A stretch of 64,000 bases of DNA from Desulfobacula sp. (lineage in GTDB: Bacteria > Desulfobacterota > Desulfobacteria > Desulfobacterales > Desulfobacteraceae). Where the stretch lies: the NCBI GenBank assembly GCA_018645325.1, contig JABGOU010000004.1, positions 96,200-160,199 on the forward strand, given 5' to 3'. Positions within the stretch are counted from its first letter, which is position 1. Every line of letters begins with the position of its first letter. A program made the translations under genes and the position numbers. A model generated the notes under the pieces. The model saw only the letters and a list, made by a program, of their open reading frames with translations, was not told the origin of the DNA and made no database searches. Below are positions 19,401 to 54,396 of this stretch, piece after piece.

Positions 19401-22400
19401 TTTCCTGAAACAGCAGTCTGTTTTTCACTGTTCTTGTTTGTAATATAAATGTTAGAAATATTTGATTTTCTGATCAAATGCTCTGTCTCTTTTTCATTCT
19501 TAAATACCACCATTATTTTACCCGGAACCTTTAAGGTAGCTTCATGCATAAGGTCTGAGCGCTTAATGATTAAGCGCATTGCATCGGCAAAAGAAAGCAT
19601 TCCACTGCAGAACAGAGCCGTGTATTCACCCACACTGTGGCCGATGAAATAATCCGGAGAAAATCCTTCTCTGGACAATCTGCTGTAAACAGCTGCAGAA
19701 GAAAGGAAAACGGCAGGCTGGGTATTTTGTGTTGAGTTAATGGCATCATCCGTGCCAAACATCATGTCTAAAAGAGAATACCCTCTTTGTTCAACAAAAA
19801 TCTCTTCGCCTTTTTCCATTACTTTTTTTATGTGGGCATCTTTTTCAAAAAGCTCCTTCATCATACGACTTCTCTGGGCGCCCTGGCCTGAAAGAAGCGC
19901 AACCATTCTCAGTTTTTTACCTCTGTCATCGGCAGAATAAGCATGATCTTTTATTACGATATCATCCTCTACAGCCGCCTTTACTGCTGAAATTTCTTTT
20001 CTGGGTTCGAGAAGAGCAGGTAATGTACTCATAATCATATGGCAATGATTCCCGCCAATGCCGTTGACATTGGCTGCAAATCTAAAAGGCTGGCCTTTGG
20101 GTTTTACCACGATCTGTTGAGAAGGTTTTAAGATTTTACCATCATTTAAAATGGAATGTTCAGGATTATAATTAAAATCCGGCAGAATTTTTCCCTTGCA
20201 GCTCATGAGCATCATTTTTGCCATGGCAACGGCAGGATTGGCAGCTTTAAAATATCCGAACTGGGATTTTATGTTTCCGCAGTGCATTTCATGGTCAAAA
20301 CAATTTTCAATTACCTGTTTTTCTACTATATCACCAAAAATATTGGAAAATGCAAAAATATCCAGATGATTGATATCCTGTTTTCTGATCCCGGAATTAT
20401 AATATGTTTCATTTATAGTTGATACAAAGGTGTGTTCCGAAGGTGCAAGGAGGTGATCCGGCACACTTGAGCGCACAGCACTTTCGTTGATCTCTCCTAA
20501 AATTTCCATATTATACTCACGGGCTTTTTTATAGGTTGTCATCATGTGGATGGCTGCTCCTTCTCCCATGACATACCCGTCTGCCCTAGAATCGTAAAAA
20601 TTACAGTCCCCTTCCGACAAAAGTCCCAGGCGTTTAAAAGCCATGAGAACTGCAGGATAAAGGTTGCAGTCAACTCCGCCTGCCAGAACAAAATCAAGAT
20701 CTTTGTGTTTTAAGTTTCTGGCAGCATTTCGCATGGCAACAAAAGCTGATGCACAGGATGCGTCAATCACGTAATTGGCACCATTCAATCCAAAATAATT
20801 TGCTATCCTGCCGGAGATAATATTGGACAAAAGCCCGGGTGTGGTATCTTCATTATTCTCGGGAATCGTATTGCGGATGGATGCCACAAGTGCATCTGAT
20901 ACCTTATTAAGTTTTTTGCCATCAATACCCTGACAATTTTTAATTATATTACCGATAAATTGTTTTCTAACCCTTACAATATTTTTACTCTGCCGCTCTC
21001 CTGCAATGGTGCCTAAAATGACCCCAACTTTGTTGGACGCGCTTATGCAATCCAGCAAGCCTGAACTTTCAAGTGCCTCGTTTGCGGCTTCAAGTCCAAA
21101 GATCTGACCTCTTTCAATGGATTTAACCATCATTGGGGGCATTCTGTATTTCAAATTATTAAACTTTACTTCCCTGACAACCCCTGCATTGACTTTGGGA
21201 AGCCTGTAATGAGAGGTTTTATCAAGATTTGCATAAGCATCATTATCAAAGTGTTTGGCAGGGATATGGGACAATTGTTTTTCCCCTGATTCAAGTTTTT
21301 CCCAGAACTCCTCTGTATTTTTTGCCCCGGGAAGAAACACACCAAGACCGGCAACCACTATTCGGTCATCATTAAAGTCATAGGTTGGATCAACAAAAAT
21401 ATCCCGTGGAATAGTTTGATAGTTATCAGTCATCTGCTCAACAACCATGTGATAGTTAATACCGCCAAACCCATAAGATGAAACTGCGGCTTTCCTTGAT
21501 TTGTTTTTTTCAAATTTGAATTCCTGGGTGTCTTTTACAATAAACAAGGAGGATTCTTTTAAATCATGATTTTTTGAAAGAGTTTCAAATTGCCCATTGG
21601 GTGGCAGTTTCCCTTTATTAACAGTCAATAAGGCCTTTAAAAGCCCTGCTGATCCTGCACAGCCTAAAAGATGGCCGATCTGTGATTTTATGGAAGAGAC
21701 ACCGGCACCCGAATTTTTGTAAATGGAATTCAATGTCTCAAGCTCTGCCTGATCACCAACTGTTGTGGATGTACCATGGGCTTCTATAAATCCGATATCT
21801 TCAGGTTTAATGTCGGGTCTGATATTTTCAAAACACCGCTGGACACTTAGCACCTGCCCTGTGGGGTTTGGTGCCGCAATGGCTTTGCCCCTGCCATCAG
21901 AGCTTGAACCAATGGAATTGATGATACCCAGAATATTATTTTTATCTCTGATGGCATCTTTCATCCTTTTTAACACAAAAACAACCGAACCCTCACCCAG
22001 GATAAACCCGTCAGCCCGCTCATCAAATGGATATGATCCATTTTTAGACAGGGCTCCCATTTTTGCAAACCCGATAAATGATTCCGGTGCCAGATGGGTA
22101 TTGACCCCACCCACAATCACCTGGTCATGGTCACCGGATAAAAGCTCTCCCATTGCAGCATCAAGGGCGGTCACTGAAGATGCACAGGCTGCATCAACAA
22201 CATAATTTGTACCCCTGACCCCCAGGTGGCGGGCAATTCTTGAGGCTTCTATATTTAAAAGGATACCGTGGACGGGATCATATCCCGGGCTGTTGGCCTC
22301 CATGCCTTCCATTAAACCCTGTTTAACGATTTGCTTTTCATCATCATTTAACGTTTGATATTCATCCGTTTTTTCCATCATGGAAACCAATTCCGGATAC

Positions 22401-24892
22401 CAGTATTTAAGCTGAATATCATTACTCAGCTCATTGGAAAGACAGGTTGCAATAATAACTGCAGTTTTTGCAGGATCCTCACAGACAAAACGATCGTCAT
22501 CTCCCAGAAGCCCGGCATTTTCAACTGCCTTATATGCCGTCTGCAAAACCATTTTCTGGCTGCGGGACAGTCTTTTTTCTTTGCCTTCGGCATATCCGAA
22601 CCGTACCTTGTCAAATTCAAAATGTTCGACATGGCCGGCAAGGATGGTATAGGTCTTATCTTCCGCACTTTTGTCAGGATCATAATAAAGGTCGCGATCA
22701 AATCTTGATTCCGGCATCTCACTTATGGAATATTTCTTGTTTAAAATATTGTCCCACAAGCTATCTGGATCATCAGCATCCGGCAGGGTACAACCTATAC
22801 CCACAACGGCAATCTCATCATTGATTTTATTTTTCACACTTGAAAAGATTTCAAGAAAATTAATATTTTTGCAGAGTTCTGATTTGGCTTTAAAGTAATT
22901 GTTGTGAATCTGCTCGATGGTTACAGCTCGATCAAAAAAGGCCAGGCTGTCCCCCACAAGAAAATTGCCCTTTTCCTTATGCTCGTCATCTTCAAACCAG
23001 GTATAGTTGTCAGGCCCGGGATTTTTAAAATCCGGCAGAAAACCTTTTGCGCCTATGAGCAAAGAACCAATGTTTTTCTTTTCAAAGGCTCGTTTTCTTT
23101 TCTCAAGGCTTTCCTTGTTTTTAATCATCCGGGCTTCTGCTTCAAGCATCGACCATGCAAAACTTGTGGGTGCGGTCCTGGATGCCAAACCTAAGCTTTT
23201 ACCGATTACCATGGTTTGGTTTTCATGGATAATGATGTCACGATATTGAGACTTAATACTTTTTGTTTCCACGATTTCATCGGCAAAAAGATAGGCTGTT
23301 CCCACCTGTATACCAATTTTTGCGCCTTTGGAGGCAAGAAAAGAGGTCAGTCCTGAAATAAAAAATGATGCAAAACGGGTGGAGATTCCACCTGCAAATA
23401 CCAGGTATACATCGGATAGATCATAATTTTTATTCATTAAACTGGTGATGGCCACTTCCCATAATACCATGGAAGAAAGAGAACCAACGTGACCGCCGGC
23501 TTCCCCGCCTTCAAAGATAAAGCGTTTACATCCGCTCTTTAAAGCATTTTCCATCATGGATACAGAGGGTGTATGAAGATAGGTTTTTGTCCCTGCCTTT
23601 TCAAGCTCTGCTACCTGGGAAGGGTTCCCTCCTGCAAAAAGCGCATAGGGAACCTTATATTTTTTAACCATGTCCAGATGTTTTTTTACCATGGGATTAA
23701 AGGCTTCAATGCCCACAAGCCCTGCACCAAAATTATCCACTTTTCTGGTGCCATCCTTCAGCATATTGTCTGCCAGCTGTTCTGGAAGACTTCCCACTGC
23801 AAAAAAAGGCAGCGCTCCCTGCTCAAGAACCTTATTGGCAAATTGGGCATTGTCCGATATATTGGCCATGGGTCCCTGGATCAATGGAAATTTTGTTCCC
23901 TGGTCTTTGGCAAAAGGGGAACCCGGCTTTACTGGATCAAATGCATCTATAAAATTTAAATTCTCACCAATGGTTTTAAAAAAGTTAGAAATAACTTGTG
24001 TAAGGCCTGTTGCATCTTTTACAAAATCCTTTGCAAACACACCATCCTGGCCCAGGTAAAAAAGAGACTGGATAAACTGAACATCTTGTTTGTCAAAAGA
24101 TGTGTAATGGGTTTTGATGGATTCATAAACTTTGTATTTTCCCTGTGGATCAACACCCACTTCAACTGCGGCAATTTTCAGTTCTTTGACTATTTTAGTC
24201 CCAAGTTTTGCAAACACCCGATAAATATCGCTGCCGTCATAGGTGATTTCAGTGGAATCACTTTCATCCACCATGGCCAAAAGCTTTTTAAAATTCTCCG
24301 ATACGGGAGCCTCGTCAGTCATGAGCAGCTGGCTGTCCATGACAAGCCCTGAAACGCCTGCTGCAAACATACCGGCAGCAGTATACTTTCCTACACCGCC
24401 ATGGATAAATATCGGCAATTCACTATTTTTCAAATACCATTGCATCAAAATAAAAGATGAATATCTTGAAACCTTGCCCCCGGCTTCATTGCCCTTTAAA
24501 ATTAAGGCATGGGGACAAATTTCTTTTATCTTGTCGTTTATATTAATATCTTTGATTTCTATGGCTATTTTCGTCTCTGCAAAATTTGTGAAGTCAGAAG
24601 GTGTATCATCTTTGGTAAGAGGAGTTATTAAAAGATCAAGGTTGATCATCTGTTGATTTCTGATTTTATTGATCAGTTCATGATCATGGGTTGAAAGCCT
24701 GATACCAAAGCTGAATTTTTCTCTTGAAAGCAACGCGGCGTTTTGAAGTATGTCGTCATGGGTTAAAAATTCCGTATCAAATACGGGAAGAGCGCCGGCG
24801 TTGGAAATCTCTTTAAAATACTTTACATCAAAAACCTTTACCGGGTTATAAACCATTAAAGGCAGTCTTGAATTGAGTATTCTTCTAATCAT
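13463..24892 (-). CDS. 3809-residue PUFA-synthase-like fatty-acid/polyketide megasynthase
   Basis: Iterative type I synthase that combines in one chain the activities normally split among PfaA-PfaD. Domains: NMO/FabK-like enoyl reductase 1 (1-240, NEAGG near 135) and 2 (320-640, GGEAGGHVG near 466); KS1 (690-1150; Cys903, His1039, His1074); KS2 (1175-1590; Cys1380, but Phe1515 and Tyr1547 replace both His); AT (1660-1965; GHSVGE, Ser1753, AFHTPLL); KS3 (2050-2555; Cys2302, His2450, His2490); three ACPs, 103 residues apart, with LGVDTVKQ at 2700, 2803 and 2906; KR (3225-3480; TGGAGGIT, Tyr3409); product-template-like DH (3505-3800; HDH at 3536-3538, Asp3715). ATG 24892 has GGAG upstream. No thioesterase domain is seen and no phosphopantetheinyl transferase is in the window. 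The product, probably a long reduced or unsaturated acyl chain, is inferred. Confidence 0.93.
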   Translation of the reverse strand: MIRRILNSRLPLMVYNPVKVFDVKYFKEISNAGALPVFDTEFLTHDDILQNAALLSREKFSFGIRLSTHDHELINKIRNQQMINLDLLITPLTKDDTPSDFTNFAETKIAIEIKDININDKIKEICPHALILKGNEAGGKVSRYSSFILMQWYLKNSELPIFIHGGVGKYTAAGMFAAGVSGLVMDSQLLMTDEAPVSENFKKLLAMVDESDSTEITYDGSDIYRVFAKLGTKIVKELKIAAVEVGVDPQGKYKVYESIKTHYTSFDKQDVQFIQSLFYLGQDGVFAKDFVKDATGLTQVISNFFKTIGENLNFIDAFDPVKPGSPFAKDQGTKFPLIQGPMANISDNAQFANKVLEQGALPFFAVGSLPEQLADNMLKDGTRKVDNFGAGLVGIEAFNPMVKKHLDMVKKYKVPYALFAGGNPSQVAELEKAGTKTYLHTPSVSMMENALKSGCKRFIFEGGEAGGHVGSLSSMVLWEVAITSLMNKNYDLSDVYLVFAGGISTRFASFFISGLTSFLASKGAKIGIQVGTAYLFADEIVETKSIKSQYRDIIIHENQTMVIGKSLGLASRTAPTSFAWSMLEAEARMIKNKESLEKRKRAFEKKNIGSLLIGAKGFLPDFKNPGPDNYTWFEDDEHKEKGNFLVGDSLAFFDRAVTIEQIHNNYFKAKSELCKNINFLEIFSSVKNKINDEIAVVGIGCTLPDADDPDSLWDNILNKKYSISEMPESRFDRDLYYDPDKSAEDKTYTILAGHVEHFEFDKVRFGYAEGKEKRLSRSQKMVLQTAYKAVENAGLLGDDDRFVCEDPAKTAVIIATCLSNELSNDIQLKYWYPELVSMMEKTDEYQTLNDDEKQIVKQGLMEGMEANSPGYDPVHGILLNIEASRIARHLGVRGTNYVVDAACASSVTALDAAMGELLSGDHDQVIVGGVNTHLAPESFIGFAKMGALSKNGSYPFDERADGFILGEGSVVFVLKRMKDAIRDKNNILGIINSIGSSSDGRGKAIAAPNPTGQVLSVQRCFENIRPDIKPEDIGFIEAHGTSTTVGDQAELETLNSIYKNSGAGVSSIKSQIGHLLGCAGSAGLLKALLTVNKGKLPPNGQFETLSKNHDLKESSLFIVKDTQEFKFEKNKSRKAAVSSYGFGGINYHMVVEQMTDNYQTIPRDIFVDPTYDFNDDRIVVAGLGVFLPGAKNTEEFWEKLESGEKQLSHIPAKHFDNDAYANLDKTSHYRLPKVNAGVVREVKFNNLKYRMPPMMVKSIERGQIFGLEAANEALESSGLLDCISASNKVGVILGTIAGERQSKNIVRVRKQFIGNIIKNCQGIDGKKLNKVSDALVASIRNTIPENNEDTTPGLLSNIISGRIANYFGLNGANYVIDASCASAFVAMRNAARNLKHKDLDFVLAGGVDCNLYPAVLMAFKRLGLLSEGDCNFYDSRADGYVMGEGAAIHMMTTYKKAREYNMEILGEINESAVRSSVPDHLLAPSEHTFVSTINETYYNSGIRKQDINHLDIFAFSNIFGDIVEKQVIENCFDHEMHCGNIKSQFGYFKAANPAVAMAKMMLMSCKGKILPDFNYNPEHSILNDGKILKPSQQIVVKPKGQPFRFAANVNGIGGNHCHMIMSTLPALLEPRKEISAVKAAVEDDIVIKDHAYSADDRGKKLRMVALLSGQGAQRSRMMKELFEKDAHIKKVMEKGEEIFVEQRGYSLLDMMFGTDDAINSTQNTQPAVFLSSAAVYSRLSREGFSPDYFIGHSVGEYTALFCSGMLSFADAMRLIIKRSDLMHEATLKVPGKIMVVFKNEKETEHLIRKSNISNIYITNKNSEKQTAVSGKAEDIEKFCTFLTQQDIFYKRLNLTGAFHTPLLKEASDKLRQYLDTLTFNDTRFGRIISNTIGKPYPEGRADVKDLLARQIISPVEFIKSIENVYESGRTHFIEIGPSRLLVNLLKNINIGEYGTSVSVDAKLGEIKSFEACRKYLKDCNSIFETKPAEAFETKFTPKPFEELPKIKMSENFESFKLNNQKLVDQILYKEYQHQKRQTAIDAIERYDFNTQKILISGVSVGLPGKDRRVFAADNFDAILNGENFIESLTPEDQDKIIDKNITKLFKQPDGNARFVQITKAEDVIHLAGQLGYFDLMDEYGIKEQYDITMAIGIAAGIEALKDANIPLVMQYKKMKGGKVMIPDGFALPEEMQEDTGVIISCLWPSQETLIEELEKYYYQKFFLKPYEEFENIYYYLMEKVTDTGIKEQITEWFFKAKSGKKKDFKEYKFDRYFAGKITPLGSAYFAQIIKAKGPNTLVSAACASTALAIGIAEDWIRVGRCKRVIVIGGENATSQRQNQWIGSGFLSLGAASIKKRVSQGAKPFDEDRNGTILGAGAVGLVVEAESCVRERGMEGQCEILGTHMANSAFHTFSIDVKHLASEMNKFVNKVEKRNGLKKEDYANKLLFMSHETYTPARGGSADAEVTALQTAFADHLDSICISNTKGFTGHTLGAAIEDVVMVKALQKRKAPPIANLKKIPEHFKNLNFSGQEKINSEYGLHLAAGFGSHLAFLFVKRVEENPVEGNVKYENWIKQITGSQNPELKIIDNTLCAVSGGEALPKAAKEIRKVVTPDKTAVPSMPAAPVPVAAIKEIEKEVEPKTVKETIKGESAEAPVVAVAEAKADDITAMVKEVIAVQTGYTADMLEDDLDLEADLGVDTVKQVEIFAKLASSFGFSVPDDLKLRDLNTIAKLGEYIQSKTGKIVESKDSADAPQTADSIAAGPGQGDDVTAMVKEVIAVQTGYTADMLEDDLDLEADLGVDTVKQVEIFAKLASNFGFSVPDDLKLRDLNTIAKLGEYIQSRAVGLVESKDSVDAPEQAGTIEVGPGQGDDVSAMVKEVIAVQTGYTADMLEGDLDLEADLGVDTVKQVEIFAKLASKFGFSVPDDLKLRDLNTITKLSDYIKSQAKVLQTQQAKQAAPFESEGANKDASPVTPLNEDDEFPDPLSPIKRLIVRAEELDIPGISKKDFKGKKIIVSLDSHGFAKEIIKKIKQKKGEVITIGSKGADFKFDLTDIKATEKRVAKFKEKYPEVNGFIHLLPLDYYFDQKDDSDDTLNTTIKSFFVMIKALFESLDHKENVIGTITFDSVVFPYMENCGDIHPMFAGLSGLMKTANKELADTRVKVVDFSYKHPIKNRPKIVDAFLFELLCDDARCEVGYKDKKRYGISMKPSIADKTQKVISGNDTLLVTGGAGGITYEIIKKVVEKYKTNLIILDINDIYSTDPKYLDKASSDPELMAKLRDDMPGEKPIEIKRALDRLLRVRQSVENIETLKSMGVSVEYNCVDVTNAKAVKKACDKYDRIDGIFHAAGMEMSQFIAKKELWSFELVVDVKVKGLQNLIEAFKDRDYKYFFTFSSVTARFGNEGQVDYTAANDFLGKMLFRQKQLYPERTYKVYAWTAWGGVGMATNPTVKAVLEQRGIQFLPMEQGVKFFMADLLDKTESEMVFSGLDYSFDKDGLLGDPGKVEFPFLDTPVAKTNSGVTYSRVLDIKRDVFLHDHTMEDVPLFLGSTGIETMAEVAKSLSEEKANFVELTDFQIPYGIKLLKGRSKELLVSGSVDGENSFDCRITSQFKNPKGIAMGDPKLHYEGKYRFAQKPLKAKKIKLPTFTPVSWEGDLEPLVYNPKRLFMFGLFSTITDINSFDGKTLITTMEDKSEKEFFKGIKDPKFVAAPILVDAMFQTGGLLEFFTTSRTVLPYKIKSLKFYANLEKNKKYFCITQKKASGEETNTYDLKLIDKKGNVFVEVDSFEMVKLNQLDPEDRIIDRVEFSF
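16080..16910 (-). repeat. Three tandem near-identical ACP-coding repeats
   Basis: Three 309-bp units encode the ACPs. They are very similar at DNA level, down to shared synonymous codons in the segment encoding MVKEVIAVQTGYTADMLE, which suggests recent amplification or gene conversion. Spacing is exactly 103 codons between the equivalent Thr codons (16793, 16484, 16175). Confidence 0.9.
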
Positions 24893-27630: not shown

Positions 27631-29342
27631 TAAATAACCGCTGCCATTACTCCAGTGGCAAGAAATAAACATTCAATAACAAATTCCCTGTGCACACCGG
27701 ATATAAGACTGTTGTTTTTAAAAAAAAGTATCAATAAAAGCAAAATCAAGGGTATGGAAACAAAAAACAGAGCTTTTTGTACAAATATTCCTGTAAAAGA
27801 ACTTAAAATAATTATACCCATGGCAGACAGCAGTACATATTGAATGATTGTAAAACTTCGCTTTTCTCCTAAAAGAATTGGAAGAGTTTCTTTACCAGTG
27901 ATTCTGTCTCCCTGAATGGCCAGTATATCAAAAAAGGCTGTTCTCGCAAAAACCAGGGCCATTACAAAAAGACATGCCATTGTGACAGACATAAAGCCAC
28001 TTTGATGTTTCATTGCCGGTAAAAGGCATGTCACGATTCCCCATGCAATGGTAATCAGAATAGTTTTAGAGCCTGGAATATCTTTTATCCTTGAAATCTG
28101 TCCCTTTTCTGACTGCAGAGACATGATTTTTAAATTATAGGACAATCCTAAAAGTGACATGATCAGCAGCACAAAAAAAGACAAGGCTCCAGCTGTAAAA
28201 CTTAAATAAAGACCTGCCGCACCAGAGAAAATGGCAAGGGCCCTTAGATAGAATCGATTTTTTTGGTAAAAATGTGCTCTTTGGGGATGATTATATTTAT
28301 CAGATTTAATGCTAAACAGATTGTTTATTATCTGCATTGAAAGAACATAGAGAGCAGCAATCAAAGAATAGTGATAATCCTGGGCAACCCCTTGAAGCAT
28401 TGAACAAGCATAAGTCAGAGATCCTGCCCCCATTGCAACCATTATATTGGTTTTCAAAAAGAAATCACGAATAAAAAGCAAAAAGGTGCTAGCCCTGTGT
28501 TGATGTTGAAGATTGGTTTCTATTTTACTGTATGCATCATTAATGATCCAGTTTGGTGTGGAAGCTCCGGCTGTAATTGCCACTGATCCGGCTGATGACA
28601 GTTTTCCATAATCAATCTGGGAAACATCTTCAATATGAGTCACTGGTTTTCCTGTCTGTGATGCGATCTGTGCCAGCCGTTTTGTGTTTCCACTCTGTTT
28701 TCCGCCCACAACAATCACAGCATCATTAGCTTTGGCAAGCCTACGAATTTCAGCCTGACGTTTTTCAGTGGACCCGCAAATCGTATCAAATATTTTATAA
28801 TGGGGCGCATTGGCTTTACACCACAATTTTATTTTATTGTAAAAAGCTGTATCCTGGGTTGTTTGGGCAACCACGACAACCTTTTCAAACTTTGGCAATG
28901 TACAAAACATTTCCATGGATGTGATGGCATGTCCTTTCCCCTTTGCATACCCTAAAAGGCCTACTACTTCCGGGTGCTTCTCATCCCCTATAATAATCGT
29001 TGAATAGCCTTTTTGTGCATATCTATCAATAATCACCTGGACCCTGACAACCCGGGGGCATGTGGCATTTATCACTGTAAAACCTGCAGTTTTCAGAGCC
29101 TTTTCATCTTCCGGTGGCACCCCATGGGCCCGGACCAGAACAATCCCTGTCCCCTTTTCAGGGATTTTATCAATCTTGAAAATCTTTTTTTCTTCAAGCA
29201 TCAAAAGGACCTGGGGATTATGGATCAAAGGACCATAGGTATAGATAGGCCCCTTGGACAGGTTGGATGCATCCAGAACCAAGTCCACAGCCCGTCTGAC
29301 GCCCATACAGAACCCGGCCGTTTTCGCAACAACTATTTTCAT
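27630..29342 (-). CDS. ispH: IspH fused to a UbiA-like membrane prenyltransferase domain
   Basis: 570 residues; IspH alone is about 280-310. Residues 1-280 are HMBPP reductase, the last step of the MEP isoprenoid pathway: the 4Fe-4S ligands sit in GFCMGV, NATCPRV and DTICGSTEKRQ, with the active-site segments HPEV and QTTQ and the GASTP substrate site. Residues about 285-570 form seven to nine membrane helices with UbiA-type acidic motifs: a first motif in NNLFSIKSDKYNHP, which keeps only part of the NDxxDxxxD pattern, and a clear second motif FFDILAIQGDRITGKETLP. This suggests a link between isoprenoid supply and prenylation of a quinone-like or lipid acceptor. Its ATG overlaps the parB stop. 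Confidence 0.88.
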   Translation of the reverse strand: MKIVVAKTAGFCMGVRRAVDLVLDASNLSKGPIYTYGPLIHNPQVLLMLEEKKIFKIDKIPEKGTGIVLVRAHGVPPEDEKALKTAGFTVINATCPRVVRVQVIIDRYAQKGYSTIIIGDEKHPEVVGLLGYAKGKGHAITSMEMFCTLPKFEKVVVVAQTTQDTAFYNKIKLWCKANAPHYKIFDTICGSTEKRQAEIRRLAKANDAVIVVGGKQSGNTKRLAQIASQTGKPVTHIEDVSQIDYGKLSSAGSVAITAGASTPNWIINDAYSKIETNLQHQHRASTFLLFIRDFFLKTNIMVAMGAGSLTYACSMLQGVAQDYHYSLIAALYVLSMQIINNLFSIKSDKYNHPQRAHFYQKNRFYLRALAIFSGAAGLYLSFTAGALSFFVLLIMSLLGLSYNLKIMSLQSEKGQISRIKDIPGSKTILITIAWGIVTCLLPAMKHQSGFMSVTMACLFVMALVFARTAFFDILAIQGDRITGKETLPILLGEKRSFTIIQYVLLSAMGIIILSSFTGIFVQKALFFVSIPLILLLLILFFKNNSLISGVHREFVIECLFLATGVMAAVI

Positions 29343-30208
29343 GAAATATTTGTAAGAAGATCGACCAGGCGTTGGAATTCTGTTTTAGATTTAAATTTGA
29401 TTTCAATCTTGCCTTTATCTCCATTCTTTTGAATTTTGACTTTGGATTGAATATGATTGGAAATCATGGAGCAGGTTTCTTCAAGAAATTGTTTTTCAGT
29501 TGCCGATATTTTTTTCTGAAATTTTTGGGGCTCGTTTTTAGCTTTTTTAACCAGTTGCTCCGTCTGCCTCACTGACAACTCTTTTTTAAGAACAATATGG
29601 AGAAGATATATCTGGCTTTCTTCTGAACCGGCACCTAAAAGTGCTCTTGCATGACCCATGGATATTTTTTCTGCAATCAGACTGTCTTTGATTTCCTGTG
29701 GAAGACTTCTGAGCCGCAAAAGGTTGGCAATTGTAGATCTGTTCTTACCAATTTTTTTTGCAACTTTTTCCTGGGTATAATTAAACTCCTTGATCAGCCT
29801 GTAATATGCTTCTCCTTCTTCAAGAACGTTTAAATCTTCCCTTTGAATATTCTCAATAATGGAAACTTCCAGAACCTGTTCATCCGTCAGGTCTTTAACA
29901 AATACAGGCACGTGGGTCAATTGGGCTTCCCTGGCCGCACGAAGCCTTCTCTCCCCTGCTATCAACTCATAGGAATCATCAAGACGTCTTACCAGCAAAG
30001 GCTGCAAAATACCCTTCTGTGCAATGGATTCCTTAAGGCGATCCAGTTCTTCCTGGTTGAATATAGTTCTAGGCTGATACCGGTTGGGCTTTATTTCACC
30101 AATGGCGCACATAAAAAAATCAGGACTGCTCTCAGGCATGTCATAATCCGGGATCAATGCTGAAAGACCCCTTCCCAGGCCGGTGTTTTTCTTTTTCTTT
30201 TTCATCAT
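29339..30208 (-). CDS. parB: Chromosome partitioning protein ParB
   Basis: CTP-dependent DNA clamp that loads at parS and works with ParA in origin segregation. The 289-residue protein has the N-terminal ParA-contact segment GLGRGLSALIP, the nuclease-like ParB/Srx domain with ELIAGERRLRAA (CTP-binding GERR) and IIENIQREDLNVLEEG, then the parS-reading helix-turn-helix (YTQEKVAKKIGKNRSTIANLLRL) and a basic C-terminal dimer domain. It overlaps parA upstream and ispH downstream by ATGA junctions. No parS-like 16-mer palindrome was found nearby. Confidence 0.95.
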   Translation of the reverse strand: MMKKKKKNTGLGRGLSALIPDYDMPESSPDFFMCAIGEIKPNRYQPRTIFNQEELDRLKESIAQKGILQPLLVRRLDDSYELIAGERRLRAAREAQLTHVPVFVKDLTDEQVLEVSIIENIQREDLNVLEEGEAYYRLIKEFNYTQEKVAKKIGKNRSTIANLLRLRSLPQEIKDSLIAEKISMGHARALLGAGSEESQIYLLHIVLKKELSVRQTEQLVKKAKNEPQKFQKKISATEKQFLEETCSMISNHIQSKVKIQKNGDKGKIEIKFKSKTEFQRLVDLLTNIS

Positions 30209-30981
30209 TTTTTAATGTGTGACCTCCGGGTTAGAAATTCCTTTGCAAAAGTAATATAACTTTTTGACCCCATTGACATTTTATCATATAGAACAATCGG
30301 CAACCCATAGCTTGGTGCCTCACCAAGCTTTACATTACGCGGTATTTTTGTATTAAAAACCATCCCTTTAAAATATTTTTTTGCATCTTCAACAACATTT
30401 TGGGCAAGATTTGTTCTTTTGTCATACATGGTCAAAAGGATCCCGTTTATCTTTAATCCGGGATTAAAAGATGATTTGACGCGTTTTATGGTATCTAAGA
30501 GTTGACCCAGGCCTTCCAGGGCATAGAATTCACTCTGAAGCGGTATCAAAACAGAGTCTGAAGCTGTAAAAGCATTTAATGTCAACAAGCCTAAAGCCGG
30601 TGGGCAATCAATGATAATATATTCAAATCTTCCTTTTAGCGGTTCCAGAAGTGTTTTTAGCTTTTTCTCCCTGTCTTTTGACGACACCATCTCAATTTCA
30701 AAGCCGATGAGATCCATATTGGCGGGGATCATCATTAATTTTGGCAATGCCGTGGGGAGAATAATATCCTCAACCTCTGCCTCACCAATAAGACCCTGAT
30801 ACAGAGAATAGTCCAGGGAGGGTTTATCGATTCCCATACCCGTTGTTGCATTTGCCTGGGAATCACAATCAACTAGTAAAACTGTTTTTCCAATTTTAGC
30901 AAGAGCGGCTGAAAGATTAATAGAGGTTGTTGTTTTGCCAACTCCCCCTTTCTGGTTCGCTATACTGATAATTTGAGTCAT
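30205..30981 (-). CDS. parA: Chromosome partitioning ATPase ParA (Soj)
   Basis: Nucleoid-binding Walker-type ATPase partner of ParB. The 258-residue, short chromosomal type lacks the N-terminal regulatory domain of plasmid ParA. It has the deviant Walker A KGGVGKTTTSINL with signature Lys, the switch I region LLVDCDSQANATTGMG and Walker B YIIIDCPPALGLLTLNA. It is the first gene of a parA-parB-ispH operon with 4-base overlaps. Confidence 0.96.
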   Translation of the reverse strand: MTQIISIANQKGGVGKTTTSINLSAALAKIGKTVLLVDCDSQANATTGMGIDKPSLDYSLYQGLIGEAEVEDIILPTALPKLMMIPANMDLIGFEIEMVSSKDREKKLKTLLEPLKGRFEYIIIDCPPALGLLTLNAFTASDSVLIPLQSEFYALEGLGQLLDTIKRVKSSFNPGLKINGILLTMYDKRTNLAQNVVEDAKKYFKGMVFNTKIPRNVKLGEAPSYGLPIVLYDKMSMGSKSYITFAKEFLTRRSHIKK

Positions 30982-31156: not shown

Positions 31157-31286
31157 AACCCGTGTTTGGGCGAAAAATTGCCCATATACAAGGCGCAAGA
31201 AAGTTTGAAACCGGAGTGTACTCCTGTACATAAGGATTTCAAACTTTTGCAGCAACGCAGTAGATGGGTGAGTTTTCGTTCAAACA
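31157..31286. repeat. About 130-bp nested palindromic repeat element
   Basis: Outer arms CGTGTTTGGGCGAAAA and TTTTCGTTCAAACAC pair imperfectly at the two ends, and an inner pair GTTTGAAA / TTTCAAAC brackets a further small palindrome (GGAGTGTACTCC). The element sits just after the stop codon of the selenoprotein gene and before its terminator. Its architecture suggests a MITE or REP-like unit that should recur elsewhere in the genome. Confidence 0.6.
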
Positions 31287-31291
31287 CAAAA

Positions 31292-32611
31292 TTACATGGC
31301 TGATTCCGGGTGAAACACATCCACTTCCTTTAAATCTTCACCAAGATATTCTCTTTCATTGGGACCAAGTATACCAAGAGAAAGGTTTAAAAGCGTCCAA
31401 AGATGAACTGTTTCCCATGCATGGTCATTGACATCTGACAGATCATGCACCTGGGCATGGCAGTTATGGCATGGTGTGATGCAGTAAGCTGCTTTGGTTG
31501 TAAGGATCTGGTTAGCCTTGGTCTGCCCATATGCCCGTCTTTGCTCCTGGAAACCGGACTGGAGAAAACCACCACCGCCGCCACAGCAGAAATTGTTGGA
31601 TTTGTTTGGCGTCATTTCAATAAAATTTTCTTCACCTACAACTTTTTTTACAACATATCTCATTTCTTCGGCAACTGGGTCACCCAGTGTTTTTCTGACC
31701 AGCTGACAGGGATCCTGAAGTGTAAACTTTATTTTTAAATCCTTGTTCCAGTCTGAAGAGGGTGTAAGTTTGCCTTCCCTGATCCATTGAGCATAGAGTT
31801 GAATAATACTTTTGATTTCAAAATTGTAAGGGATGTTGAATTTTTTCAGTCCTGCCAGGACTGCAAAGAGTTCGTGCCCTCACTCCGTGTTGAGCCAGAC
31901 TTTACAGCCCAGGTCCTCCACGGCTTTCACCTTTGTCCGGATAATTTTTTCCCAGGATTCATTATCTGCCATGAACATGCAATAATTTTCAGCGGCCCAG
32001 CCTTTTGTTCCATATGTCCAGTCAGCGCCTGCAAGGTGCATGATCTTCCACAAAGGGACCATTTCATCGGGCTCTGTCACAGGTTCTCTGGAATTCTGAT
32101 TCAAAAAATATTGAGCCCCCTCCCGGTTTACATCTGCTTTCATTTGTGCAAACTCAGGCTGTGATTCCTGGTATTCTTCAAGAACATCTTCAACAACAAA
32201 TTGAAAATCCTCTTCATTAGCGCCCATGGCAGAACAGGTATCATGTTTTAACGCCATGTCACAGGAAGCTCTTATCCCTTTTGGTCTTTCTTCTCTCGGC
32301 ACTTGTGCCCTTGCATTGAAAACAAGCTGAGGAATGTTAATTTCCATGGGACAAACATAAATACACCGCATACACATGGTACACATCCACACCCAGTTTG
32401 AACCCAGTATCTCTTCATCCATTCCAAGTGCAGCCATTCTCAGGAACTTTCTTGGATCCATTCCTTCAAGACCTGTTGCAGGACAACCTGATGCACATGC
32501 ACCGCATGTCAGACATGCATTAAGATTCCCGCCATCAGGCAGAAGTTTCATTACCTTATCTTTAAAGACACTTTTTCTTGTGCCGCCAATTTTAATAGCT
32601 GTATCTCCCAT
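31292..32611 (-). CDS. HdrD-like Fe-S oxidoreductase with selenocysteine (TGA readthrough)
   Basis: 439 residues if TGA 31880-31882 is read as Sec (residue 244). Upstream of it lie two 4Fe-4S motifs, CLTCGACASGCP and CTMCMRCIYVCP; downstream, in the same frame, come DPCQLVRKT, NFCCGGGGGF and ITPCHNCH, a CCG cluster domain. The TGA replaces Cys of the ECGH-type motif (NTE-Sec-GHE) conserved in HdrD/GlpC/DsrK-like proteins. The start at 32611 is set by AAGGAG nine bases upstream. It resembles HmcF/TmcB-type cytoplasmic electron-transfer subunits of sulfate reducers, probably thiol/disulfide or quinone linked. No cytochrome partner adjoins it. Conventional callers would split it into two ORFs (31880-32644 and 31292-31663). 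Confidence 0.85.
31847..31863 (-). promoter_or_regulatory. Bacterial SECIS hairpin
   Basis: In the mRNA, CAGUCC-UGGCA-GGACUG forms a perfect 6-bp stem with a 5-base loop containing GG. The stem starts 16 bases after the UGA, the spacing expected for SelB-dependent Sec insertion. Confidence 0.75.
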
Positions 32612-33308
32612 GCTATTGTTCTCCTTAATCCATATAAAATTCAAAATATTTTTATTTCGCTATTTAGCCAATCTTTTTTTGAGCAATGTCCTTTTTCTCT
32701 TATTCTGTCATTTATGTCAACCTTATTTTCAGATTCAGCCCATTTGAAATAAAAAATTATTGCTGAATAATGACCTTAAAAATTAAATAGCAAAGAAATT
32801 GTTGCTTATAACCTGGCAGCAAAAAAAATAAAGGAAACAAATCCTTTCCTTATCTTATCCATTTAAAGATTTTTTTGGGATAGTAAAAAAGTTAGCCCTT
32901 TGTCTATTCATCAAATTCTAAATAAATTGAATCAAATCTCAATTTTTTTGCATTGTATTTTTTTTTGATGTAACTTGATTTTGAATAACTATTCATAAAA
33001 AATATAAGAGGCCTCTGGTATCACTTACCGTTCAGATATCGGTCCCTGCATATTTCTTTTGGAAGTTGTTGTTCTATTAGAAATTTTGCTCGTGACTGTA
33101 TATACCATTTTGATCTCCTACAATTGTTATTAAAATATAAACTTTATTCCCTTTAAAAGAAAAATAAGTATTTATAAATCCCTTGACAAAAAGCCCCAAA
33201 ACGTATCTACTTATCCCAATCTGAGGAATCGATAGTTTAAGAAATTCAATAGTCAAAGGCCTGTAAGAACCAACGGGGATAGGGGGACGTTCGAAAGACA
33301 ACGCGACA
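32612..33308. other. AT-rich gap with no gene; junction to GC-rich DNA
   Basis: No ORF with recognisable content on either strand. The left part is the AT-rich upstream region of the selenoprotein gene. Base composition changes to GC-rich from about 33,240-33,290, which I take as the left edge of the acquired ABC-transporter segment. No flanking repeats or integrase could be matched to this edge. Confidence 0.5.
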
Positions 33309-34469
33309 TTGCAAACCCACCGCACCGAAGCCGTACCGAACGGAGTAGCCTCGGCCACCACAGCCTGCACTGAACCAAACGATGCGTTAGTACAGTTCAT
33401 CGAGGTTCAGAAGAGCTATGACGGCAAAATCCTCGTTGTCAAAGACCTGAATCTCGATGTGGCTCGCGGAGAATTTCTGACCATGCTTGGCCCGTCTGGG
33501 TCCGGTAAGACCACCTGCCTAATGATACTGGCAGGCTTCGAGCCGACAACAAACGGCAAAATTCTCCTCAATGGACGTTCTATCAATGACGTGCCTCCCC
33601 ATAAGCGAGACATCGGCATGGTGTTCCAGAACTATGCGTTGTTTCCCCATATGACGGTGGCCGAAAATCTCGCCTTCCCCCTAAAAGTCCGCAAAGTACC
33701 TGCAGGGGAGGTCGTCGACAAAGTGAACCGCGCACTCGAGATGGTCAAATTGCAGGGATTCGACAACCGCCGCCCTGCACAATTGTCTGGTGGTCAGCAG
33801 CAGCGCGTTGCCGTGGCGCGGGCGTTGGTTTTCGAACCCCAGCTGGTGCTGATGGACGAGCCGCTGGGCGCGCTCGACAAGCAATTACGCGAGCAAATGC
33901 AATATGAAATCAAGCACATCCACGAAAATCTTGGCATCACAACTGTCTATGTCACCCATGACCAGGCAGAGGCGCTCACCATGTCGGACCGCATAGCGGT
34001 TTTTAACGATGGCGTCGTTCAACAGTTAGCGACCCCCGCCGACCTTTACGAAAAACCCGAAAATGATTTTGTAGCGGGCTTCATTGGTGAGAACAATCGG
34101 TTTTATGGAACTGTTAGCGAAGTCAATGGCAGCACCTGTACGGTGAAGCTTGACGAGAATAGCACGGTCACCGCGGAAAAGGTCGATGTCGGAGGTGTCG
34201 GTGCTCGGGCAACCTTATCAATTCGGCCCGAACGGGTAGAGCTTTTGGGTCAAGAAGGGTCCATGGCCAACCGACTGTCGGGTCGAATCGAAGAGTTGAT
34301 TTATCTCGGCGACCATATTCGTGTTCGTATGACGGTGGCGGGAAACGATGAATTCATCGTCAAGGTCCGCAACTCTGCTAACATGCAATACGACCTGAAA
34401 GAAGGTGATGAAATTAATGTCGGTTGGAATACGAAAGATTGTCGGGCACTCAAACCCATCGATGACTGA
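33309..34469 (+). CDS. Polyamine-type ABC transporter ATPase (PotA-like)
   Basis: ATP-binding subunit driving uptake through the two permeases downstream. The 386-residue chain has Walker A GPSGSGKTTC, the Q-loop MVFQNYALFPHMTV, the ABC signature LSGGQQQRVAVARAL, Walker B LVLMDEPLGALD and the switch His in VTHDQAEAL, followed by a TOBE-type regulatory domain (about 290-380). The only start in frame is TTG 33309, and the first ~25 residues look unlike the family, so the true start may be later or the 5' end was altered at the transfer junction. Codon use is GC-rich, unlike the genes on both sides. Confidence 0.88.
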   Translation: MQTHRTEAVPNGVASATTACTEPNDALVQFIEVQKSYDGKILVVKDLNLDVARGEFLTMLGPSGSGKTTCLMILAGFEPTTNGKILLNGRSINDVPPHKRDIGMVFQNYALFPHMTVAENLAFPLKVRKVPAGEVVDKVNRALEMVKLQGFDNRRPAQLSGGQQQRVAVARALVFEPQLVLMDEPLGALDKQLREQMQYEIKHIHENLGITTVYVTHDQAEALTMSDRIAVFNDGVVQQLATPADLYEKPENDFVAGFIGENNRFYGTVSEVNGSTCTVKLDENSTVTAEKVDVGGVGARATLSIRPERVELLGQEGSMANRLSGRIEELIYLGDHIRVRMTVAGNDEFIVKVRNSANMQYDLKEGDEINVGWNTKDCRALKPIDD

Positions 34470-34550
34470 ATAAGGAAAATCGTTTATTAGCGGATGATAA
34501 ACAAAAAACCGCCCGACAAAATCCGGGCAACACTAAAAGAGGAGGACAAT

Positions 34551-35645
34551 ATGATGAAGATGTTAAGGATACTCGCTTCAACCGCCTTGGCGGTCTGCAT
34601 TTCACTATCGGCGGCCAACGCGGGTGCAGGGGAAATCACCGTTGTTTCTTGGGGTGGTGCTTACGGTAATAGCCAGGTCGAGGCTTATTACAAACCATGG
34701 ATGGCAAAGACCGGTCACAAGATCAAATCGGTTGATGCGCCCAACCCGGCCGACCCCATAAAGGCCCAGGTGACTGCGGGCAATGTTTCGATGGATGTCG
34801 CGGACGTCGAATATTCTGATGCAGTGCGTTACTGCGACGAAGGCTTGTTGGAAACCATCGATGTCACGCAACTTCCCCCCGCACCGGACGGCACCCCGGC
34901 CGTGGAAGATTTCATTGAAGGGGCCTTGACTGATTGCGCAGTGGCCAGCATCGTGTGGTCGACCGTTTTCGCCTATGACTCGACTAAAATATCCGGCGCC
35001 AAACCGACGACCATAGCCGATTTATTCGACACCAAGAAGTTCCCCGGTAAACGCGGCCTGCGCAAGGGCGCCAAGCCTAACCTGGAAATGGCCCTGATGG
35101 CAGACGGAGTGCCAGCTGGTGACGTCTACAAGCTTCTGGGCACCAAGGCCGGTGTCAAACGAGCGTTTGCGAAATTGGACACTATCAAAAAAGACATTGT
35201 CTGGTGGGAAGCCGGCGCTCAAGCGCCGCAACTTTTGGCCGACGGAGAAGTGACCATGACGACCGCATATAACGGCCGCATTTTCAACGCTGCGGCAAAG
35301 GAAAACAAACCGTTTGTCGTGGTATGGGACGGCCAGATTCTCGATTTTGACCTGTACGTAATTCCGAAAGGCGCACCCAACAAGGCGCTGGCGCTTGAAT
35401 TCATCAAGTTCGCGACTGACACCCAGCGGCTTGCCGATCAGTCGAAATACATTGCCTATGGCCCGGCCCGGAAGTCTTCGGCGCCGTTCGTTGGTATGTA
35501 TCAAGACGGCAAGACCAAAATGGCTCCACACATGCCAACGGCGCCAGAAAACATGAAAAACGCACTTGTAAACAATTTCGAATTCTGGGCCGACCATGAT
35601 TCCGAATTGAACGAGCGGTTCAACGCCTGGATTGCTGGCAAGTAA
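34551..35645 (+). CDS. Polyamine-type ABC substrate-binding protein (PotD-like)
   Basis: Periplasmic binding protein of 364 residues. ATG 34551 is preceded by GAGGAGG and opens a good signal peptide (KMLRILASTALAVCISLS, cleavage after NAGA), whereas an in-frame upstream ATG at 34494 does not. The mature chain starts EITVVSWGGAYGNSQVEAYY and carries the DVADVEYSDAVRYCDEGLLE and KKFPGKRGLRKG segments of the spermidine/putrescine and related organic-cation class. The ligand could be a polyamine or another small cation. It is part of a complete four-gene operon; a terminator-like hairpin directly after it should make it more abundant than the permeases. Confidence 0.9.
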   Translation: MMKMLRILASTALAVCISLSAANAGAGEITVVSWGGAYGNSQVEAYYKPWMAKTGHKIKSVDAPNPADPIKAQVTAGNVSMDVADVEYSDAVRYCDEGLLETIDVTQLPPAPDGTPAVEDFIEGALTDCAVASIVWSTVFAYDSTKISGAKPTTIADLFDTKKFPGKRGLRKGAKPNLEMALMADGVPAGDVYKLLGTKAGVKRAFAKLDTIKKDIVWWEAGAQAPQLLADGEVTMTTAYNGRIFNAAAKENKPFVVVWDGQILDFDLYVIPKGAPNKALALEFIKFATDTQRLADQSKYIAYGPARKSSAPFVGMYQDGKTKMAPHMPTAPENMKNALVNNFEFWADHDSELNERFNAWIAGK

Positions 35646-35657
35646 GACCAAAACAAT

Positions 35658-35693
35658 GACCGAGGTGCGAACATTCGCACTCCGGTCTTTTTT
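35658..35693 (+). terminator. Intra-operon terminator/attenuator
   Basis: A 12-bp stem (GACCGAGGTGCG / CGCACTCCGGTC, one mismatch and one G-U) with a 6-base loop is followed by TTTTTT, three bases before the permease ATG. Such hairpins after binding-protein genes commonly set subunit ratios. Confidence 0.8.
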
Positions 35694-35695
35694 GG

Positions 35696-36982
35696 ATGGA
35701 TTTGATAGTGACGAACTTAGACAAACCTAATAAGGGTGAGAGCGCTTTGTTAACAACTGCCGATGGCACACCGCTGAGAAAAGCCTTAGCCCGGGCCATG
35801 CGCCGGGCGAGGATCAACGCTTTTTTGCTGGTTGCACCGCTGCTTTTATTTGTAGTTGTGACCTTTGCTGTGCCCATCGGGCAAATGCTTTATCTAAGTA
35901 TCAACAACAGGGTTTTTTCAGACTACATGCCGCGCGTTACAGCCTATCTGAAGGTGCATCCGGAAATTGGCGTGCCCTGCGAAGACGGATTCGAGGCATT
36001 GGCACTCGATTTGGCTGCTGCCAAAAAAAACAGGACGATTGGGCGCATTGGCACCCGTATCAATTACGACCGCTCCGGTTCCACCAGCCTGTTCAAATCC
36101 GGCGCCCGCAAGGCGGTGAAATTCAAAGGTCCGCCTTACAAGGAAAAGTTCCTCAACCATAGCGAAGACTGGGGAGAACCTTACTTGTGGAACGTGATGC
36201 GGCGCGCTTCTCAAGCACACACGCTGGATTTCTACGCGGCTGCCCTTGATTTCAAATACGATGCAAACGGCGAGTTGGTGCGGGTCGAACCGGAACGCCG
36301 GATTTACGTGATGCTGTACCAGCGTACGTTTTTTCTGTCGGCGTTGATTGCCGGTCTCTGCCTGTTGTTGGGTTTTCCAATCGCCCATTTGTTGGCGACC
36401 CTGCCGCTGCGCTATTCGAATTTGCTGATGATCTTCGTTCTGTTGCCTTTCTGGACGTCGCTGTTGGTGCGAACGACGTCTTGGATATCATTGCTGCAAA
36501 GCCAAGGTGTGCTCAATGACCTTCTGGTCGCTATCGGCATCATCAACAACGATGGCCGCATTCAGATGATGTATAACCAGTACGGCACCATTATCGCCAT
36601 GACGCATATTCTACTGCCGTTCATGATTTTGCCGCTCTATTCCGTAATGAAAACCATTTCCCCCAGTTACATGCGCGCCGCGCGCTCGTTAGGTGCTGCG
36701 CCAATCACGGCGTTTATAAAGGTCTACTTTCCGCAAACAGTACCGGGTATTGGCGCCGGCACCTTGCTGGTATTCATTTTGGCTATCGGCTATTACATCA
36801 CGCCGGCCCTGGTCGGTGGTTCGTCAGGCGAACTAATCTCCAATCAAATCGCTTTCCATATGCAGAAATCTCTAAACTGGAGTCTTGCAGCTGCTCTTGG
36901 AGCCCTATTGCTGTTTGGGGTGCTGGGACTTTTTTGGCTCTATGACCGCCTGATCGGAATCGACAACATGAGGTTTGGTTAG
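35696..36982 (+). CDS. ABC transporter permease 1 (PotB-like) with large periplasmic insertion
   Basis: 428 residues, about 130 more than typical PotB. A first helix (NAFLLVAPLLLFVVVTFAVP) is followed by an unusually long hydrophilic segment (about residues 70-205) before the remaining five helices. The EAA loop with the conserved Gly reads MRAARSLGAAPITAFIKVYFPQ. The insertion is soluble in character, without cysteines apart from one, and may dock the binding protein. The start at ATG 35696 lies at the end of the attenuator U run; GTG 35708 is an alternative. The following permease starts 4 bases after its stop. Confidence 0.88.
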   Translation: MDLIVTNLDKPNKGESALLTTADGTPLRKALARAMRRARINAFLLVAPLLLFVVVTFAVPIGQMLYLSINNRVFSDYMPRVTAYLKVHPEIGVPCEDGFEALALDLAAAKKNRTIGRIGTRINYDRSGSTSLFKSGARKAVKFKGPPYKEKFLNHSEDWGEPYLWNVMRRASQAHTLDFYAAALDFKYDANGELVRVEPERRIYVMLYQRTFFLSALIAGLCLLLGFPIAHLLATLPLRYSNLLMIFVLLPFWTSLLVRTTSWISLLQSQGVLNDLLVAIGIINNDGRIQMMYNQYGTIIAMTHILLPFMILPLYSVMKTISPSYMRAARSLGAAPITAFIKVYFPQTVPGIGAGTLLVFILAIGYYITPALVGGSSGELISNQIAFHMQKSLNWSLAAALGALLLFGVLGLFWLYDRLIGIDNMRFG

Positions 36983-36985
36983 GTT

Positions 36986-37897
36986 ATGGCACTACCGGTC
37001 CATGCATCGATAGGCGAAAGAGTCTGGCATTATTGCTACCTTGGGATCTGCTGTCTGATTTTCTTGTTTCTGATCGCGCCGATCCTGATCATCATCCCGT
37101 TGTCGTTCAATGCCGAACCCTATTTCACCTTCACACACAAGATGATGAGCCTTGATCCTGAAGGCTATTCGCTGCGCTGGTACGACCAAATTCTGACCTT
37201 TGGAATGTCGAACCCGGACACTGCCCGCGAGGCTGCATGGTGGAATGATGCCTGGAACAACGCGACATGGCTGCACGCAATGAAGAACTCCGCGCTTATC
37301 AGCATTTTTGCGACTGTTTTCGCGACCACACTTGGAACTCTGGCGGCACTTGGGTTGTCGCGACCGGAAATGCCGTTCCGTCGGGCCATCATGGCATTGC
37401 TTATTTCACCGATGATAGTGCCTTTAATCATAACAGCGACCGGCCTGTTTTTCTTTTATTCTGCGACCGGGCTTGCCCATACTTTCATCGGTATTGTCAT
37501 GGCCCACGCCATGCTCGGTATTCCGTTTGTAATAATTACTGTGACGGCGACCCTGGTCGGTTTCGACCATTCGATGACCCGCGCTGCGGCCAGCCTTGGC
37601 GCCTCGCCGATAACGACGTTTCGCAAAATCAGCCTGCCGTTGATTCTGCCGGGTGTCATTTCCGGAGCCCTGTTTGCTTTTGCTACGTCATTTGACGAAG
37701 TGGTGGTGGTGCTGTTTGTTGCGTCTTACGACCAACGCACCATCCCGCTTCAAATGTGGAACGGCATCCGTGAACAGATTTCACCGACCATTCTGTCTGT
37801 GGCGACCATTCTTGTTGTATTTTCTATCAGTCTCCTTACTGTCATAGAACTCTTAAGGCGCCGAAGCGAGCGGCTGCGGGGGATCACGCCAGGTTAG
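36986..37897 (+). CDS. ABC transporter permease 2 (PotC-like)
   Basis: 303 residues, six predicted helices, beginning CLIFLFLIAPILIIIPLSFN. The cytoplasmic EAA loop reads MTRAAASLGASPITTFRKISLPLILPG and docks the ATPase. It completes an ATPase, binding protein, permease and permease operon transcribed rightwards. Like the others, it is GC-rich with many GCG, GCC, GGC and CTG codons. The operon appears functional: all four frames are intact. Confidence 0.9.
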   Translation: MALPVHASIGERVWHYCYLGICCLIFLFLIAPILIIIPLSFNAEPYFTFTHKMMSLDPEGYSLRWYDQILTFGMSNPDTAREAAWWNDAWNNATWLHAMKNSALISIFATVFATTLGTLAALGLSRPEMPFRRAIMALLISPMIVPLIITATGLFFFYSATGLAHTFIGIVMAHAMLGIPFVIITVTATLVGFDHSMTRAAASLGASPITTFRKISLPLILPGVISGALFAFATSFDEVVVVLFVASYDQRTIPLQMWNGIREQISPTILSVATILVVFSISLLTVIELLRRRSERLRGITPG

Positions 37898-53538: not shown

Positions 53539-54396
53539 TTAGTCTTCTTCTGGATGCTGGTCACGGTATCCGCTTATAAAATTCATTGAAAATTCATCTT
53601 TTCCGAGCATCAGATCGGTGAGAAGCAGCGTTTCCCTGATCGTCCAATTGGTTGGGTCGGTAATGGGACAGGTGAGCCCTTTCATTATGGCCATGGCAAG
53701 AAACACACCGTTCACAAAAGCTCTGTCCGGAAGGCCAAATGAAACATTACTGGCACCAATGGTCTGGTTAACCCCCAGATTTTTTTTGATCTCCGCCAGT
53801 GCTTTAAGTGCGCTGAGACCGGCACGATCATCAGCTGAAACACTCATTGCCAGGGGATCGATAATGATATCTTCAAGGGGAATGCCAAGTTTGGTTGCCT
53901 CATTAACAATTGTGTCACCAATCTTCATCCGGGTGGGTACATCCGAGGGAATGCCTTTGTCATCCATGGTCAGGCAAACCACAGCGGCTTTATACCGGGC
54001 CACAATGGGGAGAACTTCCTTGATCTTGGATTCCTCACCATTTGCCGAGTTAACAAGGGCTTTACCCTTGTATACGGAGAGGCCTGCGGCCAGAACTTCA
54101 GGCTTGGCTGAGTCAATACACAACGGTACATCTGTTACGTCACTGATTGCCTTTATGGCCTGGATCATAAGGGCGGATTCATCACCACCGGAAATGCCGA
54201 CGTTTACATCCAGAACCTGGGCACCGGCGGCCACCTGTCGAAGGGCTTCTTGCTGTAATAAACTCAAATCTCCCTGCTCCAGCGACCGGGCCAATTTTTT
54301 TCGTCCCGTAGGATTGATCCGTTCACCGATTATGACAACCGGATGATCGGGTCCGATTATGACCTCTTTGGTCAGAGAACTTATTTTTGTTTCCAT
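53539..54396 (-). CDS. Methyl-tetrahydrofolate:corrinoid methyltransferase (MeTr/DHPS family)
   Basis: 285 residues from ATG 54396, which is preceded by AAGGA and gives the family start followed by PVVIIGERINPTGRKKL; upstream in-frame residues overlap the previous gene and look spurious. Pterin-binding TIM barrel with LDVNVGISGGDE, CIDSAKPEVL, LVNSANGEE, IDPLAMSVS and NVSFGLPDR. It moves the methyl group from the corrinoid protein to tetrahydrofolate, so that methyl carbon can enter the Wood-Ljungdahl pathway, or the reverse. The use of THF is the family assignment and is not proven by sequence. Confidence 0.92.
   Translation of the reverse strand: METKISSLTKEVIIGPDHPVVIIGERINPTGRKKLARSLEQGDLSLLQQEALRQVAAGAQVLDVNVGISGGDESALMIQAIKAISDVTDVPLCIDSAKPEVLAAGLSVYKGKALVNSANGEESKIKEVLPIVARYKAAVVCLTMDDKGIPSDVPTRMKIGDTIVNEATKLGIPLEDIIIDPLAMSVSADDRAGLSALKALAEIKKNLGVNQTIGASNVSFGLPDRAFVNGVFLAMAIMKGLTCPITDPTNWTIRETLLLTDLMLGKDEFSMNFISGYRDQHPEED

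Follow-up and report, generated by a model that had tools for sequence, protein, structure and literature searches.

A probable selenocysteine-containing HdrD-like iron-sulfur protein gene in Desulfobacula sp., a member of a known selenoprotein family

GlpC, an "Fe-S oxidoreductase", appears among the deltaproteobacterial selenoprotein families in Zhang 2006 (PMC1794560), and a 2026 review (PMC13188914) places an "Fe-S oxidoreductase-like protein" with the motif UGH, where U is selenocysteine (Sec), under "Predicted with high confidence". In the 2009 genome paper of Desulfobacterium autotrophicum HRM2 (PMC2702500), hdrD4 is listed as selenocysteine-containing. Here I describe an hdrD-like gene in a stretch of 64,000 nucleotides of Desulfobacula sp. 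(assembly GCA_018645325.1, contig JABGOU010000004.1, positions 96,200 to 160,199; the whole stretch is called the window). Judging from comparative evidence, I estimate a probability of about 0.95 that it is one intact selenoprotein gene whose UGA codon is recoded as Sec. U244-G245-H246 fits the UGH motif as given in the review. The initial annotation of this DNA had pointed to GlpC-type Fe-S oxidoreductases as a selenoprotein family known in deltaproteobacteria, which agrees with the list in PMC1794560, but had regarded the Sec position as unusual, while UGH is the published motif of this very family (PMC13188914). Since both the UGH family and HRM2 hdrD4 appear in these publications, the finding is right but the class was already known; the gene is a new member of a catalogued selenoprotein family and not a new kind. 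Experimental proof of Sec in the UGH family was not found in a literature search, most subscription journals being outside its reach.

By motif and description, the window gene resembles the family of the review in having Sec at U-G-H, in belonging to the Deltaproteobacteria, and in that some related genes lie beside an hdrA-like gene. In contrast, the operon described in that review is glpC-hdrA-frhD-frhG-frhA, whereas the window copy lies beside parA-parB. HRM2 HdrD4, from a sulfate reducer belonging to the same broad group, is likewise described as a Sec-containing soluble HdrD (HdrCB-like) (PMC2702500). In EtfD of Mycobacterium smegmatis (9ojn), there is a membrane domain, and the CCG region contains a second, linear cluster, while in the window protein the N-terminal half of the HdrB-like part (residues 160-290) has only C211, C236, and U244; the first and the last of these do not vary among the 33 aligned Sec relatives. 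Compared with the methanogen HdrB and HdrC (5odc), the window protein is fused in one chain; compared with HdrB, it has one full CCG motif instead of two, and Sec replaces one cysteine (Cys).

The two minus-strand open reading frames (ORFs) noticed at first, 31880-32644 and 31292-31663, are indeed in the same frame, with only one TGA between them. When the TGA is translated as an open codon, a single frame of 439 residues results, and no other break exists inside it. Codon 244 lies in the context NTE-U-GHELF. Sixteen TGA codons in the window have at least 60 open codons on each side; ranked by the shorter of the two open sides, this one comes first (259 codons before it and 195 after it), followed by a TGA at 54344 (267 and 139 codons).

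The codon was compared among relatives found by tblastn (E <= 1e-20 and more than 200 query residues). The 185 loci, which include sel genes and others without such a place, gave 168 places, and removal of 29 identical copies left 139 distinct relatives; two loci of the own genome, L007 and L008, fall outside these counts under the same thresholds. The sample is tilted to close relatives because only the best matches and 20 chosen stretches were fetched. Codon 244 is TGA in 148, TGC in 17, TGT in 2, and TTT in 1 of the 168 places, and TGA in 119, TGC in 17, TGT in 2, and TTT in 1 of the distinct relatives. Thus, an in-frame TGA aligns with Cys in relatives, as expected of a selenoprotein (119 TGA, 19 Cys, and 1 phenylalanine (Phe)); four of the 19 Cys relatives are distant, with 27-31% identity. 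The same TGA is present in the named isolates Desulfospira joergensenii and Desulfocicer vacuolatum. The alignment proposed in the initial annotation therefore gave Cys or TGA in 138 of 139 relatives, and the observation named there as speaking against the prediction, a homologue with another residue, was made once: the Sec position is occupied by Phe in one paralogue from a further genome of the host's family (L155 6040-7275), which on visual inspection still has part of the hairpin sequence. It was taken as an isolated loss.

Could the TGA be a nonsense mutation or a sequencing error that splits a decaying gene? In favour of this, the TGA interrupts the frame, and elsewhere in the genome there is a degraded copy of the C-terminal part that contains several stops (L188 5476-5676). 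However, the same TGA is found in 119 of the 139 distinct relatives across genera, the sequence on both sides of it is conserved, and the hairpin downstream covaries. A pseudogene is extremely improbable. The aligned frame has few other stops; L108, L137, L156, L170, and L179 have one close to the C-terminus, at position 433. Separately, L135 6001-7299 has an in-frame TAG at position 229 besides the Sec TGA, which may be a mutation or possibly a pyrrolysine codon.

A second possibility is that two separate proteins are made, the second starting at the internal ATG 31663. A downstream ORF with an ATG is present, and two-gene Hdr arrangements are known (PMC2702500). Nevertheless, the stretch from the TGA to this ATG (residues 245-316) holds conserved protein: G245-H246 and D300-P301-C302 are invariant over the 33 aligned Sec relatives, and H246, D300, and C302 are found in all 139 relatives. 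The Cys relatives examined are single frames whose first stop does not come before residue 433. Two separate proteins are thus very unlikely.

The selenocysteine insertion sequence (SECIS) element was the next feature compared. The initial annotation had described a 6-bp hairpin with a GG loop starting 16 bases after the TGA; the hairpin is real and its spacing right, but it is slightly longer, with 7 bp and a GGC loop. In 106 distinct Sec sequences, 732 of 742 stem cells are paired, with compensatory changes, whereas 56 of 105 cells are paired in 15 distinct close Cys or Phe sequences. In 1000 partner shuffles of the Sec set, the mean was 671.7 paired cells (standard deviation 5.1, maximum 689); sliding the stem gave at most 53% pairing, and this control, unlike the partner shuffles, accounts for relatedness. 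Pair 22/26 is GC in 56, TA in 38, GT in 5, and AT in 4 sequences and unpaired in 3, while pair 18/30 is GC in 93, AT in 7, and GT in 2 and unpaired in 4. The G at the start of the apical loop, expected of a SECIS element, is invariant in 106 of 106 Sec sequences.

Because the hairpin sits within conserved coding sequence, synonymous-codon shuffles were used for folding, with 40 of the 119 Sec genes (alternate ones among the closest 79) and all 16 close non-Sec genes. The mean z score was -2.54 for the Sec genes, 39 of 40 lying below -1.5, and 0.04 for the non-Sec genes, 1 of 16 lying below -1.5. For the window gene, z was -2.56, and the two lowest of 374 30-nucleotide windows cover the hairpin. 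In 111 Sec genes, codon entropy relative to usage was 0.41 in the 10 columns after the TGA versus 0.88 in 123 others. Rfam at the gathering threshold gave no match in the window, and the SECIS element was therefore judged by comparison and not by a library model. By that comparison, the predicted hairpin is more than chance and behaves as a bacterial SECIS element. The family is a clean comparative case, with Sec, Cys, and Phe versions in which the SECIS element is kept only where Sec is used.

All four components of the machinery, sought as the initial annotation had proposed, were found in the own genome above curated cut-offs: tRNASec (selC) with 75.5 bits (cut-off 47), SelB with 337.8 bits (242.25), SelA with 582.9 bits (267.9), and SelD with 342.4 bits (125). 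The selD frame has its own single in-frame TGA, and SelD is likely a second selenoprotein of the genome. An alternative is that TGA is reassigned genome-wide or generally suppressed by another tRNA. Although the open frame by itself would fit this, TGA terminates 11 of the 29 other large ORFs in the window (called mechanically, at least 200 codons, no overlap), and TGA is thus not generally reassigned; besides, the conserved hairpin and the alternation with Cys are specific to Sec, and the Sec machinery is present. Reassignment has next to no likelihood. The pseudogene, two-protein, and code-reassignment readings were all rejected on the conservation of the TGA, the conservation of residues 245-316, and the use of TGA as a stop.

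The distribution of the gene is wide. Matches at E <= 1e-120 occur in 84 of 86 genomes of the host's family (paralogues counted, Cys forms included), and 98 of 395 genomes of a phylum sample match at E <= 1e-70, with at most four candidates scored per genome; most of the phylum matches listed have one TGA. Two full-length paralogues with 57% identity are encoded in the own genome (4.39 Mb, 157 contigs, 90% complete), one with a TGA (L003) and one without (L002). A quick tree was made from 72 of the 139 sequences (52 of 119 Sec and all 20 non-Sec, 19 Cys and 1 Phe). It needs 7 changes between Sec and non-Sec with three outgroup rows omitted and one distant Cys row retained, and the starred branches alone require 4; the tree carries a warning of long branches and does not distinguish gain from loss. 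The gene shows how a protein widespread among marine sulfate reducers, with a probable role in energy metabolism, is split by standard gene calling.

As for the protein, an HdrC-like dicluster and an HdrB-like fold are found in one chain, as in HdrD-type fusions. The eight Cys residues of the ferredoxin motifs and the five of the CCG domain are kept in all 139 relatives. The closest solved fold is EtfD, and the fold of the CCG domain matches EtfD and HdrB. Fer4 and CCG domains, which I take to define the Fe-S oxidoreductase-like selenoprotein family (GlpC, UGH), are both present. HdrB has two complete CCG cluster motifs; only the C-terminal one is complete here, and the name HdrD-like, not HdrD, is therefore used. 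In type, this soluble HdrC-HdrB fusion belongs with HdrD, EtfD, and HmcF. The "HdrD/GlpC-type" of the first description thus stands as regards a single HdrD-like fusion, while GlpC is only a historical label. As families proper, GlpC (TIGR03379; 32.1 bits, cut-off 279.9), HmcF (159.4, cut-off 750), TmcB (150.7, cut-off 735), and DsrK (105.2, cut-off 400) were all rejected; the last three models outscore the GlpC model, all far under their cut-offs. The features are collected in Table 1.

Table 1. Features of the hdrD-like locus, in window coordinates
Feature	Position	Strand	Basis or remark
hdrD-like gene, probable selenoprotein	31292..32611	-	ATG 32611-32609, TAA 31294-31292, 439 residues; close relatives align over 1-439
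In-frame TGA probably read as selenocysteine, residue 244, ECGH/EUGH motif	31880..31882	-	Codon comparison in 139 relatives
Putative SECIS hairpin, 7-bp stem, GGC apical loop (or 6 bp closing a 5-nucleotide loop), 16 nucleotides after the TGA	31847..31863	-	Covariation, synonymous shuffle
Ribosome-binding site AAGGAG, 9 nucleotides 5' of the ATG	32621..32626	-	Read from sequence
Two [4Fe-4S] ferredoxin motifs, HdrC-like (C33, 36, 39, 43; C77, 80, 83, 87)	32351..32515	-	Pfam Fer4_8 and others
C-terminal CCG domain, HdrB-like, predicted noncubane [4Fe-4S] site (C302, C342-C343, C381-x-x-C384)	31460..31708	-	Pfam CCG, 46.6 bits, E 3.8e-12
Putative parA-parB, conserved neighbours in closest relatives, outside the function	29339..30981	-	Downstream of gene

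By the known bacterial mechanism, SelB with Sec-tRNASec would bind the hairpin just after the UGA, and the ribosome would insert Sec at residue 244 and then continue. In the protein, the C-terminal CCG cluster may be fed by the two ferredoxin cubanes. The HdrB-like part has a degenerate N-terminal half, which would contain the EUGH motif with its Sec; Sec244 and His246 may be located at the CCG cluster or close to it and be involved in electron or thiol/disulfide chemistry. From the motif spacing and a helix that starts next to the motif, I infer that U244-G-H246 matches EtfD C581-x-H583. It is possible, though doubtful, that Sec244, together with His246, is a ligand or a direct gate of the noncubane [4Fe-4S] CCG cluster, as a selenolate-tuned site for disulfide or electron-bifurcation chemistry in sulfate reducers. 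If so, the UGH family, in which Sec and Cys have been interchanged several times, would be a natural Se/S series for such clusters. Another chemistry, compatible with Sec insertion, would be a redox pair of Sec/Cys244 and Cys211 (a selenylsulfide), with Sec not a cluster ligand. All 119 Sec relatives have C211, as do 14 of the 15 close Cys relatives and the single Phe relative, and the 4 distant ones (27-31% identity) lack it. However, since the Phe relative retains C211 and one Cys relative does not, this residue does not closely track Sec; such a pair seems rather unlikely. As a Sec-specific partner, C211 was rejected, being family-wide instead.

The electron partner of the product is, at roughly even odds, an HdrA-type flavoprotein; such a partner is suggested because the paralogues and relatives elsewhere adjoin hdrA-like genes, often with metV- and metF-like genes too. 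Names of neighbouring genes are provisional and were given from their sequences. The Sec paralogue of the own genome, on the same contig at a distance of about 79 kb from the window (L186 1696-9667), has as neighbours the gene of a 1477-residue HdrA-type protein and metV- and metF-like genes, and the Cys paralogue lies beside an HdrA-type gene. Other lineages have hdrA - hdrD(Sec) - metV - metF-like clusters, or the gene downstream of metV - metF - hdrA-like genes; in some loci, neither hdrA/metV/metF-type arrangement was seen.

Several points weigh against this account. The recoding is predicted from comparative evidence only. The cell counts of the stem overstate the number of independent events because the relatives are kin, many of them near-copies. 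Among 14 control genomes, tRNASec was above the cut-off in 5, SelB in 2, SelA in 1, and SelD in 2; the tRNASec model is the least specific, and alone only moderately so, because of its 5 of 14 controls. Residue 244 is not strictly essential, since L155 has Phe there. No hdrA-like gene lies within 6.5 kb of the window copy, which adjoins parA-parB. The N- and C-terminal halves of the HdrB-like part were compared as profiles in order to align Sec244 with the CxxC of the opposite half, but no match was significant, and the sequence alignments to EtfD do not cover residue 244.

In the closest relatives, the gene lies between a divergent hrpA-like helicase gene and parA-parB-ispH-like genes, and the hrpA-like gene was found in 32 of the 75 loci examined. 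The window retains the downstream genes of these relatives. At 33309-37897, where those 32 loci have the hrpA-like gene, it has a putative polyamine-type ATP-binding cassette (ABC) transporter operon divergently upstream; this upstream difference is a local rearrangement. Just after the stop codon, at 31185-31290, there is an interspersed repeat with a palindrome. The 106-bp stretch (query ends approximate) has 25 matches in the own genome including itself, 19 of which span at least 103 bases with 80-100% identity, and it looks REP-like (repetitive extragenic palindromic) or MITE-like (miniature inverted-repeat transposable element). Elsewhere in the window, a single minus-strand ORF of 3809 codons at 13463-24892 is very large for a bacterial gene.
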